A DNA stretch of 35,072 nt from Nitrospinota bacterium. Lineage in GTDB: Bacteria; Nitrospirota; Nitrospiria; Nitrospirales; UBA8639. The notes under the pieces are model-generated. The model did no database searches. It had not been told where the DNA came from and saw nothing but the letters and a program-made list of their open reading frames with translations. Each line of letters opens with the position of its first letter. Within the stretch, counting starts at the first letter, position 1. The stretch spans positions 1 through 35,072 of the forward strand of contig JACZVJ010000021.1 in NCBI GenBank assembly GCA_022572725.1, given 5' to 3'. The translations under genes were made by a program, and so were the position numbers. Of this stretch, positions 15,619 through 32,943 are shown piece after piece.

Positions 15619-16257
15619 TCAAGCTCCCTGGCGTTTCCCGATTCGTTGTTTCAACCGCCAGGCCGCGAAACCGATCAGGCCGGAACTAAGAAGGATGAGG
15701 GAAGCAGGTTCAGGGTTGGCGATGGTGCCAGCAGCGAGGGTAAGCCCTTGGACCGAAAATTCGTGACCCGACGCCTGTGGGTTGGCTGAGAAGACAATCT
15801 GGTTAAAGGCCGTGGGAGTTAAGGCAATCGTATACGCGCCGTTGGGAGCGCTCGTATTGTCCTGCACGAACAAGGTTGGGATCCCGCCATCTAGGGCATA
15901 ATAACCGGACTCGAAGCTACCACCCTCGTAAAACAAGTCAGTGATCTGGATCTGTTGGATGAGCAGGTCCACACCCGAAGGGGGCGTAAAAGACAACGAC
16001 AGGACCTCGTTAGTGTCAATTTCGTCGTTTTCCCCTCCCCAAACACCATACCCGTCAACATTGTCCCAGTAGATATGCCCCGGTGTGGCGGACACCTCAA
16101 GCGAAATCTCATAGCCGTCTATGGAGAGCTGTGTGGAAAAGAAAGAGGAATCGCCAGGATTAAAGGAAGAATCGCGGAAGTCGATGACAGTGACCCCAAA
16201 CGCGTTGGCGGTCACGAAGAAGAAGGCCGCGGTCATAGGAGTGATCAAACGGTTCAT
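15619..16257 (-). CDS. PEP-CTERM sorting domain protein
   Basis: 212 aa, exported. An N-terminal signal (about 1-20, MTAAFFFVTANAFG) precedes a beta-rich, acidic, Gly/Ser-rich body with no recognised domain. The C-terminus is a textbook PEP-CTERM: NPEPASL, a hydrophobic helix, then a basic tail KQRIGKRQ (about 182-210). The family is processed by exosortase, usually in bacteria that make exopolysaccharide. GGAAGGTG just upstream of ATG 16257 is the ribosome binding site. A second, damaged PEP-CTERM gene lies upstream on the same strand. No exosortase gene is in this window. Confidence 0.85.
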   Translation of the reverse strand: MNRLITPMTAAFFFVTANAFGVTVIDFRDSSFNPGDSSFFSTQLSIDGYEISLEVSATPGHIYWDNVDGYGVWGGENDEIDTNEVLSLSFTPPSGVDLLIQQIQITDLFYEGGSFESGYYALDGGIPTLFVQDNTSAPNGAYTIALTPTAFNQIVFSANPQASGHEFSVQGLTLAAGTIANPEPASLILLSSGLIGFAAWRLKQRIGKRQGA

Positions 16258-24924: not shown

Positions 24925-25374
24925 GCAATCTGCCAGTGTTACGGTTTCCTAAAAATGCTGCTGGAACCTTGTCCTGTGCCCCGAGGTACTTGGCCTTAAA
25001 AGCTTGAACCGCTTTGGCATTCCCACCCAGGCATTTTTTAGCGGCTCGTCATTAGCTGTCGGCAGAGGAGGCAATCATCTAAACAGGTCGTTCTTTTGCA
25101 TTGAAAGAAGGCTTCGCCGTGTACCACCTTTCTCTCCCGCTTCTCCTGCCTTGATGCTGAATGAATCCCGTTTATTCTTCCTTAAATTTCGCGACGTTGC
25201 GGGGAAGTGCAGGCTTATGATTTTTCCGTTTTCTCCGAAAAGGGAAGGGTGAGATTCACAAAAGCCGTGTGTTTTCCATTGGAGGGAAATGCTGAAGGTA
25301 TTTGTTTCTTCTTGGAAGATTGACTTCATTACTATTCTCGAAAGGACACAGAGAAGCCACACTAAACACTGACA
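24925..25374. other. gene-free stretch upstream of the riboswitch
   Basis: About 450 bp without a credible gene. It should hold the promoter for the riboswitch-controlled sigma factor transcript and one for the leftward VanZ gene. TTGACT at 25320-25325 is a possible -35 but has no convincing -10 at standard spacing. I also see no sigma28-type TAAA/GCCGATAA pair. Confidence 0.4.
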
Positions 25375-25477
25375 AATAGGTGACAAGGGCAAACTACTCG
25401 AGAGGGTAGGGCGCAAAGCCAAGAGACCTGAGTGGGGATGATGTTCTTCCCAGGGTTAGTCTGGTTCCCGAACTATT
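25375..25477 (+). ncRNA. cyclic di-GMP-I (GEMM-I) riboswitch aptamer
   Basis: Conserved GEMM-I features appear in order: AAGGGCAAAC (25385-25394); a six-base-pair stem CTACTC/GGGTAG closed by a GAGA (GNRA) tetraloop; GGCGCAAAGCC (25410-25420), matching the consensus GACGCAAAGCC with one change; a second stem TGGGGA/TTCCCA (about 25433-25452); and the 3' CTGGTTCCCG. Outer bases AATAG (25375-25379) and CTATT (25473-25477) can close P1. The aptamer lies directly ahead of an intrinsic terminator and a FliA-type sigma factor gene. Recognised by eye, not by a covariance model. Confidence 0.85.
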
Positions 25478-25500
25478 CAGGTTCCTCTTTCTCCTCCTAC

Positions 25501-25535
25501 TGCGCCCATCTCTTTCAGGATAGGCGCATTTTTTT
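25501..25535 (+). terminator. intrinsic terminator forming the riboswitch expression platform
   Basis: TGCGCC(C)ATC and GAT(A)GGCGCA form a 9-pair stem with one mismatch and an 8-nt loop, followed by seven T's (25529-25535). It sits 24 nt after the aptamer and 32 nt before the GTG start of the sigma factor gene. The 5' arm TGCGCCC (25501-25507) is also an exact complement of GGGCGCA (25409-25415) in the aptamer core. The two pairings are mutually exclusive, giving an antiterminator/terminator switch. Confidence 0.85.
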
Positions 25536-25567
25536 GCCCTGGTTGCCGCCTGAAAGGGAAAACGACG

Positions 25568-26410
25568 GTGTACCGAGGTCGAGGGGGGCTTAAAAAGAGG
25601 GCGATCCAAGCGGGTCGGAGGGCTAAAAAGGCCATACCGGTTGAGGGAGAATCCACGGGTTGGGTCGACACATCGGTTGAATTTTCCAAGAAAAAACCTG
25701 AAGAGCTTATCAAACAATATCTTCCCATTATTCGTCGAATGGCGGCGGAATTCGTGGTGAGGAACCCCGGTGCCCTTGACGTGGAAGATCTGGCAAGTGC
25801 CGGGGTCATGGGGCTTTTGGGAGCGATTTCCCGCTTCGACCCAAGCCGTGAAATCAAGTTTCGAACTTTTGCTGAGTATCGGATTCGGGGAGCCATGTTG
25901 GATGAAATCCGTGCCATGGACTGGGTTCCTCGTTCAGTGCGGACACGAATTGAACAGATTAGCCACGTTTCAGCTGAATTCACCAAAAAGGCCGGCCGCC
26001 CACCGGACCAGAATGAATTAGCGGAGATGTTGGGGTTGAGTGTCGAGGAGCTTGCGGATTCACCATCCAAGGAGGCCAGGGTCGTCAGTCTGGATGAATG
26101 GGTTGGTGATGAGGATGAGCCTTCTTCCTTAAAAGATGTCCTTCCCGCTCCTGACCAACTGGATCCATTGGCCGCCTGTATTTCCAATCAAATGCGCGAT
26201 GTTCTCCTGGCAGCCATTGAGCGCCTTCCTGAGCGCCAGGGACAAATTGTCCGGCTTTATTATTTTTCCGGTCTCACCATGAAGGCGATTGGCGCTATTC
26301 GAGGGTTAACGGAATCGGGGATCTGTCGGGTCCACGCTGATGCACTGAGCCGGTTGAGGGCTGAGCTGGAAGCGACCGGTGTCGAGATGCCAGACCGTCA
26401 ATCAATCTAG
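25568..26410 (+). CDS. FliA/WhiG-type sigma factor (sigma28 family), riboswitch-controlled
   Basis: 280 aa from GTG 25568, with AAGGG (25554-25558) 9 nt upstream; no ATG precedes the conserved region. Region 2 spans about 47-117 (DLASAGVMGLLGAISRFDPS, then FRTFAEYRIRGAMLDEIRAMDWVPRSVR, typical of FliA). Region 3 is about 122-170 (GRPPDQNELAEMLGL), region 4 about 212-266 (LPERQGQIVRLYYFSGLTMKAIG). The protein would direct RNA polymerase to sigma28-type promoters, classically flagellar and chemotaxis genes. The N-terminal 25 residues are lysine/arginine-rich, an unusual extension. No flagellar gene is in the window, so motility control is inferred from family and the c-di-GMP riboswitch, not from context. 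It may instead serve another c-di-GMP-regulated regulon. Confidence 0.92.
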   Translation: MYRGRGGLKKRAIQAGRRAKKAIPVEGESTGWVDTSVEFSKKKPEELIKQYLPIIRRMAAEFVVRNPGALDVEDLASAGVMGLLGAISRFDPSREIKFRTFAEYRIRGAMLDEIRAMDWVPRSVRTRIEQISHVSAEFTKKAGRPPDQNELAEMLGLSVEELADSPSKEARVVSLDEWVGDEDEPSSLKDVLPAPDQLDPLAACISNQMRDVLLAAIERLPERQGQIVRLYYFSGLTMKAIGAIRGLTESGICRVHADALSRLRAELEATGVEMPDRQSI

Positions 26411-27276: not shown

Positions 27277-27861
27277 TTAAGTTTGGTGCTGGCGAGGTAC
27301 GAAGAATTCATGCCGGCCAATTGTGGCCACTTTATGACTCACCCTAGCCCAGTAGGGCTTTCGTACAATCCGGGGGTTATAAAACAGCACTGCGCCACCC
27401 ACCACATCTCTCCCATCCTGGACTAGCCGCCAGGCCAAAAGGCTGTCGCGCAACCTTTGCTTGTTCAGGTCGAAGGAAACCTGGTGAGGTTGCCTTGTGT
27501 TCCACGGTTGGAATTGGCTTCGTTTCAAAACAGTACCCTTCACGGTTCCATCACTTTGGTACTTCATTTTCATTCGATTTCTTATCACCGCCGCTACGGC
27601 CAACTTCCCGGCAAAACTCTCTCCTTTGGCTTCCATGTACACGGTCAGTGCTGCAAGGCCTTCTTCTGTAAGATTTCTGGGAAGGGGGTCCAGGTCTTCC
27701 TGGTAAGGGGGCAGGGAAGATGCCATGCCAGAATCGGCCAATAATCCAACAGGTCGTTCCCCGGGGGCAACGCTGATGGGGACCAGGCAAAGAATGGCCA
27801 AAATGATGGCGAGCCTAGTAGAAGGAGCATTGAGCAGGAATTTCATGTTGTTGGTTATCAT
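27277..27861 (-). CDS. SleB-type cell wall hydrolase
   Basis: 194 aa from ATG 27861. GAGGAGG (27876-27870) sits 8 nt upstream; in-frame upstream codons exist to 28044 but lack an RBS and would bury the signal. A signal peptide or anchor covers about 14-34 (TRLAIILAILCLVPISVAPG). Residues 67-190 match the Hydrolase_2/SleB fold: LTVYMEAKGES with E77 and E81, AVAAVIRNRMK, then FQPWN and AVLFYNPRIVRKPYW. SleB was first known as a spore-cortex lytic enzyme; the domain is also widespread in non-sporulating Gram-negatives as a peptidoglycan hydrolase. A periplasmic wall-remodelling role is likely here. Confidence 0.85.
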   Translation of the reverse strand: MITNNMKFLLNAPSTRLAIILAILCLVPISVAPGERPVGLLADSGMASSLPPYQEDLDPLPRNLTEEGLAALTVYMEAKGESFAGKLAVAAVIRNRMKMKYQSDGTVKGTVLKRSQFQPWNTRQPHQVSFDLNKQRLRDSLLAWRLVQDGRDVVGGAVLFYNPRIVRKPYWARVSHKVATIGRHEFFVPRQHQT

Positions 27862-28424
27862 GATGAGGACCTCCTCTTTCCTCCGAGCAGGAATTCCGCT
27901 TTCAGTCGGCCTACGATGAAAATCCATCTTGGTGTCCGATAGTAAAAAACCTTGGTGGTTAATGAAGACTGATTTATGTTTTTGATTAACTCCATTTTTC
28001 TCTCCTCCCGAACTTACATGCTGACTACGCAATGCCAATGCCAAGCTGTCGGATCATTCCATGCCCTTCGCGCCAGACCTTGAAACACCTCGTTTACACA
28101 GGGTATTTTGGGATTTACTATCTCCCAATGCATGGCAGGAAATCGGGGAACTGTGAGAGAATGTGGAAAAAATACTGACGGGTCCGGGAGGTGATGGAGG
28201 AGAACTTTAAAATTTATGAGGAATCATAATGAGTTAGGCTCGTCTGACATTTTGGAAAAAGTTCTAACACCGCTTTTCAGAAGTCTATCCTGTTCCACCG
28301 GGAACCCTGATTTAAGTGTTAATATAATGGAGGTAGTTCTGGTTATTGCGAGGTTCTATTGAGTTTCGTTAGTTAAAATAGTGGTAAGGGCTTTGACTGA
28401 GGCGTTTGAAAATGGGGGGAAGGG
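27862..28424. other. intergenic region between divergent hydrolase and TPR-like genes
   Basis: 563 bp without a convincing gene. TATAAT at 28323-28328 is a good -10 box for the rightward gene but lacks a matching -35. TTGCGA (28346) and TAAAAT (28374) are 22 bp apart, too far for a standard promoter. Nothing else is clear. Confidence 0.4.
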
Positions 28425-28979
28425 ATGAGTGACACACCGTTAAGATCTCAGTTTGTCATGGGCATAGCCGGTTTGTTGTTGATTCTGAGCGGTTTCTTCG
28501 TCATGGGGCCTGGAGTCAGTCTAGCCTCTTCTCCTTCTGATCAGGCCAGAGGCCATCTGAGCCGGGCCAAGGTATACCTTGCGGCTGGTGATTACCAGCG
28601 AGCTGTGGAGGCATGCCAAACCTATCTGGATGAGTCCCCTTCGGTCCAAGGTTATGTGTATCTCACGTATGTGTATCATACGATTAATGGATATTTGGAA
28701 TGGTTAGCCAAAAGAGATGAATGGGTGAAGGTAGGCCAGTTGTCCCTGTCCTTTGGCACTCGAGGGACACTGGACCTGGTGGATCCACCCGATGTTTTGG
28801 CGCGAATGGCTAAGGAAATTCTGGCAGAAGGCCTCCGGCAGCAGTTTGATATTACTGCGGCTATGGCGAACCGGCTGGATAAAAACAAGGTTGACCAACT
28901 ATGGCAAGAGCAGGAAACCTGGAAAAAGAATCACCCAGACAGTTGGTGGGCTGGGGTGCCTGAAGCATGGGGATGGTAA
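28425..28979 (+). CDS. exported TPR-like protein of unknown function, 184 aa
   Basis: A hydrophobic segment at about 12-34 (MGIAGLLLILSGFFVMGPGV) with a following LASS looks like a signal peptide. Residues 38-75 (ARGHLSRAKVYLAAGDYQRAVEACQTYLDE) form one clear TPR unit; the rest is helical and ends in a tryptophan-rich tail (WWAGVPEAWGW). GGAAGGGATG overlaps the ATG and gives a plausible RBS. Likely periplasmic. No family name comes to mind. It is separated from the thioredoxin gene by a dedicated promoter at 29129-29157, so probably not in that operon. Confidence 0.68.
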   Translation: MSDTPLRSQFVMGIAGLLLILSGFFVMGPGVSLASSPSDQARGHLSRAKVYLAAGDYQRAVEACQTYLDESPSVQGYVYLTYVYHTINGYLEWLAKRDEWVKVGQLSLSFGTRGTLDLVDPPDVLARMAKEILAEGLRQQFDITAAMANRLDKNKVDQLWQEQETWKKNHPDSWWAGVPEAWGW

Positions 28980-29128
28980 ATCACCGTATCCCGGTGTATC
29001 AATCAAAGGTTGCGTCATTTTTGGGCTCTCATGTTATTCCGGGTCTCGCCAACACCTCTCAATTGGGAGTGCGAGTCGCGAGCTCCTTCTCGGGTTCCTC
29101 AAAAAATCAACTAAGAAAATGATGTAAG

Positions 29129-29157
29129 TTGACACACCCAGGCCGGCGGTTTAGGAT
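29129..29157 (+). promoter_or_regulatory. sigma70 promoter of the thioredoxin-recN operon
   Basis: A perfect TTGACA (29129-29134), 17-bp spacer, then TAGGAT (29152-29157). Initiation near 29164 leaves a leader of about 45 nt ending in AAAGGAGGG before the thioredoxin start. No SOS box is visible around it. Confidence 0.65.
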
Positions 29158-29209
29158 GGCTTTTGCCATTGGAAAAACTTTTTTGTTCCATCCATAAAGG
29201 AGGGTGTTT

Positions 29210-29557
29210 GTGTCCAATCTTGTTGCACAAGCTGATCAATCCAATTGGGAAACGGAGGTTATGCAATCGTCCCAGGTCGTGATGGTTGACTTCTGGGCCG
29301 TGTGGTGCGGGCCATGCCAAATGGTGGCCCCCATTGTCGAGCAATTGGCAAGTGAATACGCTGGCAAACTTAAGGTGATGAAACTCAACACGGATGAAGC
29401 CCCCGAGGTTGCCGGCCGTTATCAAATTATGAGCATTCCGACCATTCTTTTTTTCAAGGACGGGCAGCCTGTCGAAAAACTGGTCGGTGTCCGGCCGAAG
29501 CCGCAGTTTAAGCAAGTAATTGACTCGCTTCTCGCCCAGCAATCCGCAAATGCCTAA
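29210..29557 (+). CDS. trxA: thioredoxin
   Basis: 115 aa from GTG 29210, chosen because GGAGG (29199-29203) lies 6 nt upstream; an earlier GTG at 29204 would overlap the SD. The classical redox motif WCGPC is at 32-36 in VDFWAVWCGPC, with cis-proline P77 in MSIPTILFFKDG. Length and layout are those of a cytoplasmic thioredoxin that reduces protein disulfides with thioredoxin reductase. No signal peptide. recN starts 23 bp after its stop on the same strand. The two likely share the promoter at 29129-29157, linking redox and DNA-break repair functions. Confidence 0.95.
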   Translation: MSNLVAQADQSNWETEVMQSSQVVMVDFWAVWCGPCQMVAPIVEQLASEYAGKLKVMKLNTDEAPEVAGRYQIMSIPTILFFKDGQPVEKLVGVRPKPQFKQVIDSLLAQQSANA

Positions 29558-29580
29558 GGAATTTTTGATGCCCCGCTCTT

Positions 29581-31260
29581 ATGCTCAACGAGCTCCGCAT
29601 CTCCAACTTTGTCCTCATCAACCACCTCCATCTTGAATTTTTCAAGGGCTTTCAGGTTCTCACAGGGGAGACGGGTGCGGGAAAATCTCTCCTTGTTGAT
29701 GCCGTAGCCTTACTCATGGGGGGTAGGGGAACGGTGGACCAAATCCGTTCTGGTGCCGAAGAGGCGGTACTGGAAGGCGCCTTCTCTCTTCCAGCCAACA
29801 AGTCATTGTTTGATCGGCTCACCGAATTAGATCTCCTTCCACAGGATGGGAATGAGTTGATTATTCGGCGGATCTTGTCCAGGACAGGTCGAAACCGCCT
29901 CTACGTGAATGGCAATCTTGTTCCCCTGCATCACGTGCAAGAACTCGGTGGGTTTCTTCTCGACATTCATGGACAGCATGAACAGCAATCTTTGCTTTCA
30001 CCCAGAGTCCAATTGGATAGAGTCGATGAATTTGGGAACCTCATGGACCTGCGGTCGAAATTTGGGGCCTGCTATGCCAGATGGCGAAACAAGGAACGGG
30101 AACTCGAAGCTGCGGTACGACGAGCTACCGATCGAACACAGCGCGAAGAATTCCTTCGATTTCAGTACCAGGAATTAGAGGGAGCTCACCTCCGTGTTGG
30201 GGAGGAAGAAGAGCTGGTCCTTGAACATCGCCGGTTGCAGCATGGGGGGCGGCTCCTCGAATTAGCCAATAACGCCTATGAGGTTTTGTCCCGAGGCGAC
30301 CATTCCGTGCTCGCACAGATACGGTCTGTCACCGATGCCGTCCGGGAGTTGGTTGCCATTGATCCCAACGTTGGAAATTGGATTGATTTGTCTGAGGGGG
30401 CAGCCATCCAGCTTCGAGAGCTCGCTGATTCGGTTCGAGATTATGCCAAGGATTTTGACCATGATCCGAATCGGCTCGCCGAACTGAATGAGCGATTGGC
30501 CCAACTCCAGCGATTGAAGAAGAAATATGGAGACTCGGTTGAAGGACTTCTCAGGCGTTGTCAGCAGGTTAAGCAAGAGCTTGATGAGCTGGCCACCCTC
30601 GAAGAACGAACTGAGGAATTGAAAATGGCTCTTGCTCTCGAACAACAGCAAGCGGTGATGTTGTCTGACCAACTCTCCAAGAAGAGGAAACGCCTTGCCA
30701 GAGATCTAGAAAAACGCATCGCGGAAGAACTGGCCGCCTTGAGCATGGAGCGGGTTGAATTTCGCGTGCGACTCTCTCCCCATGCTGGTGGAGAACCCAT
30801 AGGCCCCACGGGTTCTGATCGGGTGGATTACCTATTCTCGGCTAACCCTGGGGAACCCCTGCAACCGCTGGGGCGAGTGGCATCCGGCGGGGAATTGTCC
30901 AGGCTTATGCTTGCCATCAAGACTGTTCTGGCAGAGGCCGATCAAGTCCCGGTTCTCATTTTCGATGAAGTGGATGCAGGGATCGGTGGGGCCGTAGCCG
31001 CGGTGATGGGAAACCGACTCCGCATGCTAGGACGTTACCATCAGGTTTTTTGTATTACCCATCTCCCTCAGGTCGCTTCACAAGCCAGCACTCATTTCGT
31101 TGTTCAGAAGCGGGTGACCGACAGCCGGACGGTGACCACCGTGAAGGCTTTAACCCCGCAGGAGCGAGAAGACGAAATTGCTCGAATGTTGGGTGGAACG
31201 GAAATTACCGCGTCGCTTCGGAAAGCGGCGGCGGAAATGTTGAGAACGGGGAATGCCTAG
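29581..31260 (+). CDS. recN: DNA repair protein RecN
   Basis: 559 aa, the usual RecN length. SMC-like: N-terminal Walker A GETGAGKS at 29-36, a long coiled coil (about 155-370) with a central break, ABC signature ASGGELSRL with S435-G-G, and Walker B IFDEVDAGIGG with D462/E463. LYVNG and DIHGQHEQQSLL near 110-140 are RecN hallmarks. RecN acts early in double-strand break repair. It is often LexA-controlled; here no LexA-type box is evident and the gene sits in an operon behind thioredoxin. No good SD precedes ATG 29581, so translational coupling is possible. Its stop is 9 bp from the stop of a convergent gene. Confidence 0.96.
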   Translation: MLNELRISNFVLINHLHLEFFKGFQVLTGETGAGKSLLVDAVALLMGGRGTVDQIRSGAEEAVLEGAFSLPANKSLFDRLTELDLLPQDGNELIIRRILSRTGRNRLYVNGNLVPLHHVQELGGFLLDIHGQHEQQSLLSPRVQLDRVDEFGNLMDLRSKFGACYARWRNKERELEAAVRRATDRTQREEFLRFQYQELEGAHLRVGEEEELVLEHRRLQHGGRLLELANNAYEVLSRGDHSVLAQIRSVTDAVRELVAIDPNVGNWIDLSEGAAIQLRELADSVRDYAKDFDHDPNRLAELNERLAQLQRLKKKYGDSVEGLLRRCQQVKQELDELATLEERTEELKMALALEQQQAVMLSDQLSKKRKRLARDLEKRIAEELAALSMERVEFRVRLSPHAGGEPIGPTGSDRVDYLFSANPGEPLQPLGRVASGGELSRLMLAIKTVLAEADQVPVLIFDEVDAGIGGAVAAVMGNRLRMLGRYHQVFCITHLPQVASQASTHFVVQKRVTDSRTVTTVKALTPQEREDEIARMLGGTEITASLRKAAAEMLRTGNA

Positions 31261-32163: not shown

Positions 32164-32943
32164 ATGGTGAAGAGCGTATTGGATACTGTTGAAAATGAAG
32201 TCAGCCATGCGGTAGGTCGTCTGAACATTGAACAGGCGGTCCAAACTTACCACGAACAGGGAGAATTTTTGGCTGTTGATCAATTCCTGGCCCAACCTGT
32301 GGTCGATCGGTTCATGACTGAAGTGGAGCAGGTTCGGACCCAACTCAATCGAAACTATATTCCTACTCACAAAAAAGGCGGAAGTGTGAGCTATTTCATT
32401 TTAGGTCAGGCGGCTCCAGCCATTCTGTCGTTTTACCGTGCTCCGGATTTTATCAATTGGCTTAGCCGAATCGCGGGGGCTCCTCTCTTACTATGTCCCG
32501 ATTCTGATCCTCATGCTTGCGCTCTCTATTTTTACACAGAACCCGGGGATCATATTGGATGGCATTACGATACTTCCTACTACAAGGGGACTCGTTATAC
32601 GGCCTTGCTTGGGTTGCGGGATCGCTCGACCAGTCGATTGCTCTGCCGCCTCCATACAAAAGATCATTCTCGGGAAACCAAGGAACTCACCCTGTCTACT
32701 GATCCAGGTTCCTTGGTGTTTTTTAATGGGGATAAGCTGCAGCATGCCGTCACGCCTCTGAGGGAGGGGGAGGAACGGATTGTTCTCACCCTTCAATACG
32801 TGACTGATCCACGCATGGGAGCCTTTCAGCGGTGGTTTTCAAACATGAAGGATGCGGTGGGATATTTTGGGCTTCCAGCACTCTTTCGGCACCTTTCGCC
32901 AAAGGCAATCGGGAGTTCCCGACGTGGTCAAGCCTCTTCCTGA
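32164..32943 (+). CDS. 2OG-Fe(II) oxygenase-like protein
   Basis: 259 aa. GWHYDTSYYKG contains the HxD pair H134/D136; KLQHAVTPLREGEERIVLTLQY contains the distal H194 and R205, the complete Fe(II)/2-oxoglutarate facial triad plus 2OG-binding arginine. The jelly-roll core spans about 115-215. The N-terminal 110 residues are helical. AGAGGGTAG just before ATG 32164 is the RBS. The substrate is unknown; members of the superfamily hydroxylate or halogenate small molecules and modify proteins. Divergent neighbour at 31941 shows the same HxD..H..R pattern. The last 16 bp overlap the convergent PP2C gene. Confidence 0.82.
   Translation: MVKSVLDTVENEVSHAVGRLNIEQAVQTYHEQGEFLAVDQFLAQPVVDRFMTEVEQVRTQLNRNYIPTHKKGGSVSYFILGQAAPAILSFYRAPDFINWLSRIAGAPLLLCPDSDPHACALYFYTEPGDHIGWHYDTSYYKGTRYTALLGLRDRSTSRLLCRLHTKDHSRETKELTLSTDPGSLVFFNGDKLQHAVTPLREGEERIVLTLQYVTDPRMGAFQRWFSNMKDAVGYFGLPALFRHLSPKAIGSSRRGQASS

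Follow-up and report, generated by a model that had tools for sequence, protein, structure and literature searches.

We consider it likely that a c-di-GMP-I riboswitch attenuates the transcription of a dedicated, non-flagellar sigma28 paralogue, and that this paralogue probably transcribes some of the other genes that carry such riboswitches. The system lies in a window of 35,072 nucleotides (the whole stretch of DNA analysed), which is contig C190 of a 99%-complete genome of 3.17 Mb from a family of Nitrospira-like bacteria; the relatives that bear names are MAGs of Nitrospirales/Nitrospirota. In the mechanism that we propose, a strand of the ligand-free aptamer (S2) would capture the 5' arm and loop of the terminator (S3), giving an antiterminator that lets the polymerase read into the sigma gene. 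When c-di-GMP is bound, S2 would be kept in the aptamer, S3 would pair with the terminator 3' arm and transcription would stop. The paralogue, with its altered -35 helix, would probably be restrained by a second FlgM encoded beside a PilZ/YcgR-type c-di-GMP receptor, and would probably transcribe at least a subset of the cell's other genes with c-di-GMP-I riboswitches from [T/G]NAAG-N15-CCGATA promoters. c-di-GMP would then hit the same outputs twice, from riboswitch to sigma factor to riboswitch-bearing genes.

The aptamer and its expression platform

The first-pass annotation of this DNA had described a GEMM-I aptamer with a GNRA-capped P2 stem, followed by an intrinsic terminator, and all three elements were recovered (Table 1). 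The Rfam model RF01051 matched the window aptamer end to end (model positions 1-87) with 57.7 bits (E 6e-9; gathering score 35), and it was the sole Rfam match in the window. The aptamer is closed by P1 (25375-25379/25473-25477), which was read directly and is also present in the alignment-based model. It carries the conserved core GCAAAC...CGCAAAGCC and a G at the ligand-specificity position, which we take to be the equivalent of G20 by Vc2 numbering; an A there, the criterion for a 3',3'-cGAMP riboswitch (GEMM-Ib), is thus not met. The same G is found in 27 of the 29 other sigma-linked aptamers. The position is A in L075 (G026) and C in L094 (G024), and it is also other than G in L020 and L105. 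Nine riboswitches besides that of G026 carry A, and the A or C of some aptamers hints at a possible drift in ligand, perhaps towards cGAMP. Given that the window's genome contains five GGDEF-domain matches and seven c-di-GMP-I riboswitches, c-di-GMP signalling is present in it; c-di-GMP as the ligand of this leader is inferred, without binding data.

Table 1. Positions of the leader elements, the sigma gene and the second FlgM gene.
Feature	Position	Strand	Basis or remark
Candidate sigma28-type leader promoter (CTTATG, 15 nt, CCGAAAA)	25214..25241	+	Weak in window; relatives similar
c-di-GMP-I (GEMM-I) aptamer including P1	25375..25477	+	RF01051 25378-25472; P1 closed
P2 hairpin, GAGA (GNRA) loop	25394..25409	+	Stem 25394-25399/25404-25409
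Switching strand S2 (P2 loop, P2 3' strand, core GGGCGCA), antiterminator half	25400..25415	+	MFE folds, duplex energies
Spacer, can also pair with P3 5' strand (second anti-aptamer helix)	25478..25500	+	Seen in window only
S3 (terminator 5' arm and loop), partner of S2	25501..25516	+	Folding, duplex energies
Intrinsic terminator	25501..25535	+	-14.1 kcal/mol; 3' arm 25523-25528, T7 25529-25535
Ribosome-binding site GAAAGGGA	25552..25559	+	Sequence, 8 nt 5' of GTG
Sigma28 paralogue gene, FliA/WhiG family, 280 aa, GTG start	25568..26410	+	TIGR02479, Pfam, clade
Second, non-flagellar FlgM gene	G000:C122:40190-40351 (L284 3658-3978); L285-L291		Followed by PilZ/YcgR-type gene

The terminator 3' arm, GGCGCA, mimics the aptamer strand and is followed by seven T, so that the four strands can pair in either of two ways, like those of a classic attenuator. 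An antiterminator between GGGCGCA (25409-25415) and TGCGCCC (25501-25507) had been proposed earlier; this complementarity is exact, but the predicted helix is about twice as long. Folding of growing transcripts pairs GAGAGGG-UA-GGGCGCA with UGCGCCC-AU-CUCUUUC, that is, the whole of S2 with the whole of S3. This antiterminator is the minimum free energy structure of transcripts ending at 25520-25524 (-43.3 and -45.5 kcal/mol), when the terminator 3' arm is about to be transcribed, and from 25528 on it is outcompeted by the terminator. The S2:S3 duplex of the window (-23.6 kcal/mol) is more stable than those with each of the 32 remaining terminators from the loci. In the window's genome the aptamer is opposed by a second helix as well, formed by the P3 5' strand and the spacer (25472-25489). 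The full-leader fold further paired 25380-25394 with 25533-25547, which we judged to be a probable chance match. At 25520 the forced native aptamer was less stable than the antiterminator by about 14 kcal/mol (ViennaRNA, without ligand or tertiary contacts), a gap which implies that switching must be kinetic, with the aptamer folding first.

As the terminator can form beside a ligand-bound aptamer while the antiterminator destroys the aptamer core, the inferred direction of the switch is OFF. The leader meets the criterion of a Cd1-type OFF switch, an intrinsic terminator together with an antiterminator that excludes the aptamer, and its predicted direction would agree with that measured for the c-di-GMP-I riboswitch Cd1 of C. 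difficile (PMC9262584). An OFF switch responding to c-di-GMP is therefore supported on sequence grounds, its direction and its ligand being inferred in the absence of binding or termination data.

The unit of aptamer, terminator and sigma gene is conserved. Among 49 genomes of the family, 33 contain c-di-GMP-I riboswitches and 30, in genera g1, g5, g7, g8, g9 and g10, have the riboswitch together with the sigma gene. A second FliA-family gene was found in 30 genomes and as a contig-end fragment in G034, and the riboswitch lies directly upstream of it in 30 of these 31 cases, the exception being G016. Chance can be excluded as the source of this unit because it precedes an orthologous sigma gene in 30 genomes. 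The terminator is retained in 29 of the 30 sigma-linked leaders; that of G017 has no T-run and no recognisable terminator. Moreover, in 27 of the 29 leaders scored (25 of the 27 sigma-linked ones), S2:S3 was stronger than the pairing with any of 32 unrelated terminators; the set includes L104 and L105, two riboswitches of response-regulator genes whose platform is of the same kind.

In the seven-pair core of the antiterminator, 92% of the cells were paired, against 42-69% in slid versions, and shuffles attained the core score in 14 out of 500 cases. Core pair 3:16 is G-C in seven distinct rows, A-U in three and unpaired in one, and this compensatory change is confined to genus g8. At this column S3 of G020 and G022 forms an A-U pair with the aptamer, but no more than U-G with the 3' arm of its terminator, a better fit that points to selection on S2:S3, whereas the pairing is poorer in G024 and in g9. 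The support from covariation for the putative S2:S3 helix is good but not overwhelming, with one compensatory column in one genus. A model built from the sigma-linked aptamers found an aptamer upstream of 22 of the best 80 related sigma loci. Among these best 80, none was found upstream of the sigma loci of Nitrospira sensu stricto, nor beside a sigma gene of N. defluvii or other Nitrospirota that fall outside the family, and Rfam found no riboswitch either in 20 sampled sigma loci without a model match.

The sigma28 paralogue and the second FlgM

The downstream gene had been read as a FliA-type sigma factor lying apart from flagellar genes, and both parts of this claim hold. The open reading frame matched TIGR02479 (FliA_WhiG) with 214.6 bits against a cut-off of 189.6 and contains Sigma70_r2, r3 and r4 (Pfam); its GTG start is consistent with the conserved N-terminus of its relatives (MYRHRVGGLK in G026 and G027). 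No flagellar genes were found among the window proteins scanned, and the flagellar FliA of this genome adjoins FlhA on contig C118. Among the neighbours, a SleB-like cell-wall hydrolase, a TPR protein, a thioredoxin and an SMC/RecN-like gene (27277-31260) have relatives that adjoin the sigma gene in 18-28 loci; a PEP-CTERM protein and a halogenase-D-like 2OG-Fe(II) oxygenase are encoded at 15619-16257 and 32164-32943.

The second FliA-family genes scored 193-219 bits and the flagellar FliA genes about 260-269 bits, and the former make up one separate clade with a support of 100/100. Region 2.4 is common to both, and every paralogue with an intact region 4 has TESG[VI]CR[VI]H in place of the TESRICQLH of flagellar FliA. 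A shared region 2.4 and a changed -35 helix suggest, by inference, that the paralogue may recognise the same -10 and make an altered contact at -35. The criteria for a flagellar FliA orthologue are thus not met, the gene being outside the flagellar cluster, in a separate clade and with a different -35 helix; as judged by clade and gene context, flagellar FliA and this sigma factor are separate paralogues. In G019 the paralogue (L102, 3804-4661; 162 bits) appears to be frameshifted in region 4, through decay or an assembly error.

Two FlgM genes are present in most of the near-complete genomes with two FliA genes. In G026, a 99%-complete genome in which no flagellin, FlhA or flagellar FliA was found, the riboswitch, the paralogue and the second, non-flagellar FlgM are all retained, and this single FlgM shares its gene neighbourhood with the non-flagellar FlgM of the other genomes. 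The gene after the non-flagellar FlgM encodes a related protein of 219-251 aa in 8 of the 8 genomes read; the three members scanned all have a PilZ domain, and two of them a YcgR N-terminal domain too. The second FlgM is probably the paralogue's own anti-sigma factor, an inference from co-retention only.

The sigma gene itself may be preceded by a sigma28-type promoter. The leader promoters of its relatives have a similar place and spacing, 78-138 nt before the aptamer, and g7 and g10 share a conserved CTTAA[CT]TC...CCGATAACA about 123-134 nt before it, with CCGATAA as the -10. The candidate in the window is a degenerate version of this promoter. Autoregulation is possible and has not been shown.

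Promoters at other riboswitches and the competing readings

The first-pass annotation had expected the sigma factor to turn one c-di-GMP sensor into regulon-wide control and had proposed a genome search for sigma28-type promoters. The genome-wide part of this gave nothing: in six genomes, perfect E. coli-type sites (TAAA-N14-16-GCCGATA) were no more frequent than the reversed pattern, nor did whole-genome counts of TTAAG-N15-CCGATA with one mismatch exceed the reversed control. Motif counts therefore cannot define the regulon, and only the position relative to riboswitches is informative. There, however, the signal was strong. We sought T[ACT]AAG-N15-CCGATAA within 220 nt upstream of 92 non-sigma c-di-GMP-I riboswitches from 32 genomes, scoring 12 consensus letters and permitting spacings of 14-16 with a penalty. 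A score of at least 10 was reached at 80 of the 92 (opposite strand: 3 of 92; background: 4.4% of random windows, 8.4% of ORF upstreams), and a score of at least 11 at 48 (opposite strand: one).

When spacings of 9-21 were scanned at a score of at least 11, we obtained 48 sites at 15, 15 at 16 and 0-3 at the others. The independent consensus published for Bdellovibrio FliA (PMC3627812) gave 42 at 15 and 11 at 16. It should be noted that our own consensus was drawn after seeing examples included in the set, and that the riboswitches fall into orthologous groups and hence cannot be counted as 92 independent events. The motif positions are clustered at about 10, 26-31, 80-84, 98-104 and 113-117 nt, which indicates that several orthologous groups are involved. 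The products downstream are Flp pilin, TadE-like and fn3-like proteins, response regulators and a response-regulator/HisKA protein. Loci with a sigma28-type promoter spaced by 15 bp include L004, L019, L022-L027, L033-L036 and L222-L275.

The assignment of these promoters to the paralogue is inferred. The riboswitch and its OFF switch could be real and the promoters of the other riboswitches those of flagellar FliA, leaving the paralogue a small unknown set: flagellin promoters (TCAAG-N15-[ACT]CGATA) match them in the -10 and come close to them in the -35, the -35 helix of the paralogue is unlike that of FliA, and its own gene leader has a different -35 (CTTAAYTC). We find this serious but rather unlikely, since G026, devoid of flagella and flagellar FliA, keeps promoter-like, if imperfect (10/12), sites 9-12 nt before both of its other riboswitches (L222 and L223), which only the paralogue could read there. 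Furthermore, the paralogue co-occurs with riboswitches, being present in 31 of the 33 genomes with them and in none of the 16 without. The idea of regulon-wide control is strengthened in that most other riboswitches are preceded by sigma28-type promoters, while their reader, paralogue or FliA, remains unproven. A wider form of our favoured reading makes the non-flagellar sigma28/FlgM pair a c-di-GMP hub, with a sigma factor turned off by a riboswitch, a PilZ protein by the anti-sigma factor and most riboswitch genes transcribed by the pair's sigma; this can be put forward only tentatively.

An ON switch, or a leader acting mainly on the start region of the gene instead of or besides termination, appears improbable. 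The g10 leaders (L077-L103) and that of G019 (L102) carry CGUUCGUUCAU just ahead of the terminator, a complement of the start AUGRACGAA that may represent a second, translational layer, and dual control is known in the c-di-GMP-I riboswitch Bc1 (PMC11218506). This complement is nevertheless not seen in the window's genus, nearly every leader has kept its T-run terminator as counted above, and the sole aptamer-terminator pairing found excludes the ligand-bound core, hence OFF. As for a ligand other than c-di-GMP (e.g., 3',3'-cGAMP), or no response at physiological levels, the deviating specificity positions and Bc1, which binds its ligand yet showed no regulation under the conditions tested (PMC11218506), leave it a very slim chance against the G of the window and of nearly all other sigma-linked aptamers, G20A being the change studied for cGAMP binding (PMC6274999).

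Relation to known systems

Sigma factors set a regulon, and a riboswitch on a dedicated sigma28 factor with riboswitch-bearing targets would amount to an RNA-sigma-RNA feed-forward circuit. Such a circuit would account for a possible coordination of attachment with motility in Nitrospira-like bacteria, and for the release of a FliA/FlgM pair from flagella; flagella-free G026, covarying leaders and defined promoters make it directly testable. No relevant publication on a Nitrospira c-di-GMP riboswitch with a sigma factor was found in the part of the open literature searched.

Control by c-di-GMP of a sigma factor of this family has been described in Actinobacteria, where RsiG-(c-di-GMP)-WhiG governs a FliA/WhiG-family factor, with type IV pili as an output in Rubrobacter (PMC8325347). 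There the control is exerted by a c-di-GMP-binding anti-sigma protein, whereas here it lies in an RNA within the sigma mRNA and the FlgM-type anti-sigma factor is encoded elsewhere. FliA of Bdellovibrio bacteriovorus resembles our case by its similar promoters (TTAAG-N16-CCGATA), its use far beyond flagella and the presence of a c-di-GMP riboswitch RNA, proposed as a c-di-GMP store; the sections consulted describe no riboswitch ahead of the sigma gene (PMC3627812).

Cd1 is also among the closest parallels, being a GEMM-I aptamer that acts as an OFF switch by termination and controls the flgB operon, which includes the sigma28-family gene sigD (PMC5386303). A sigma28 factor under a c-di-GMP-I riboswitch is therefore not new. 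The sigma factor of the Cd1 operon is, however, flagellar and one gene within an early flagellar operon, whereas the leader in the window directly precedes a separate non-flagellar paralogue and takes its switching strand from P2 and the core. Three features are new: a dedicated paralogue, not flagellar, that immediately follows the riboswitch; a switching strand made of P2 and core; and a likely nesting of the switch with other riboswitch genes.
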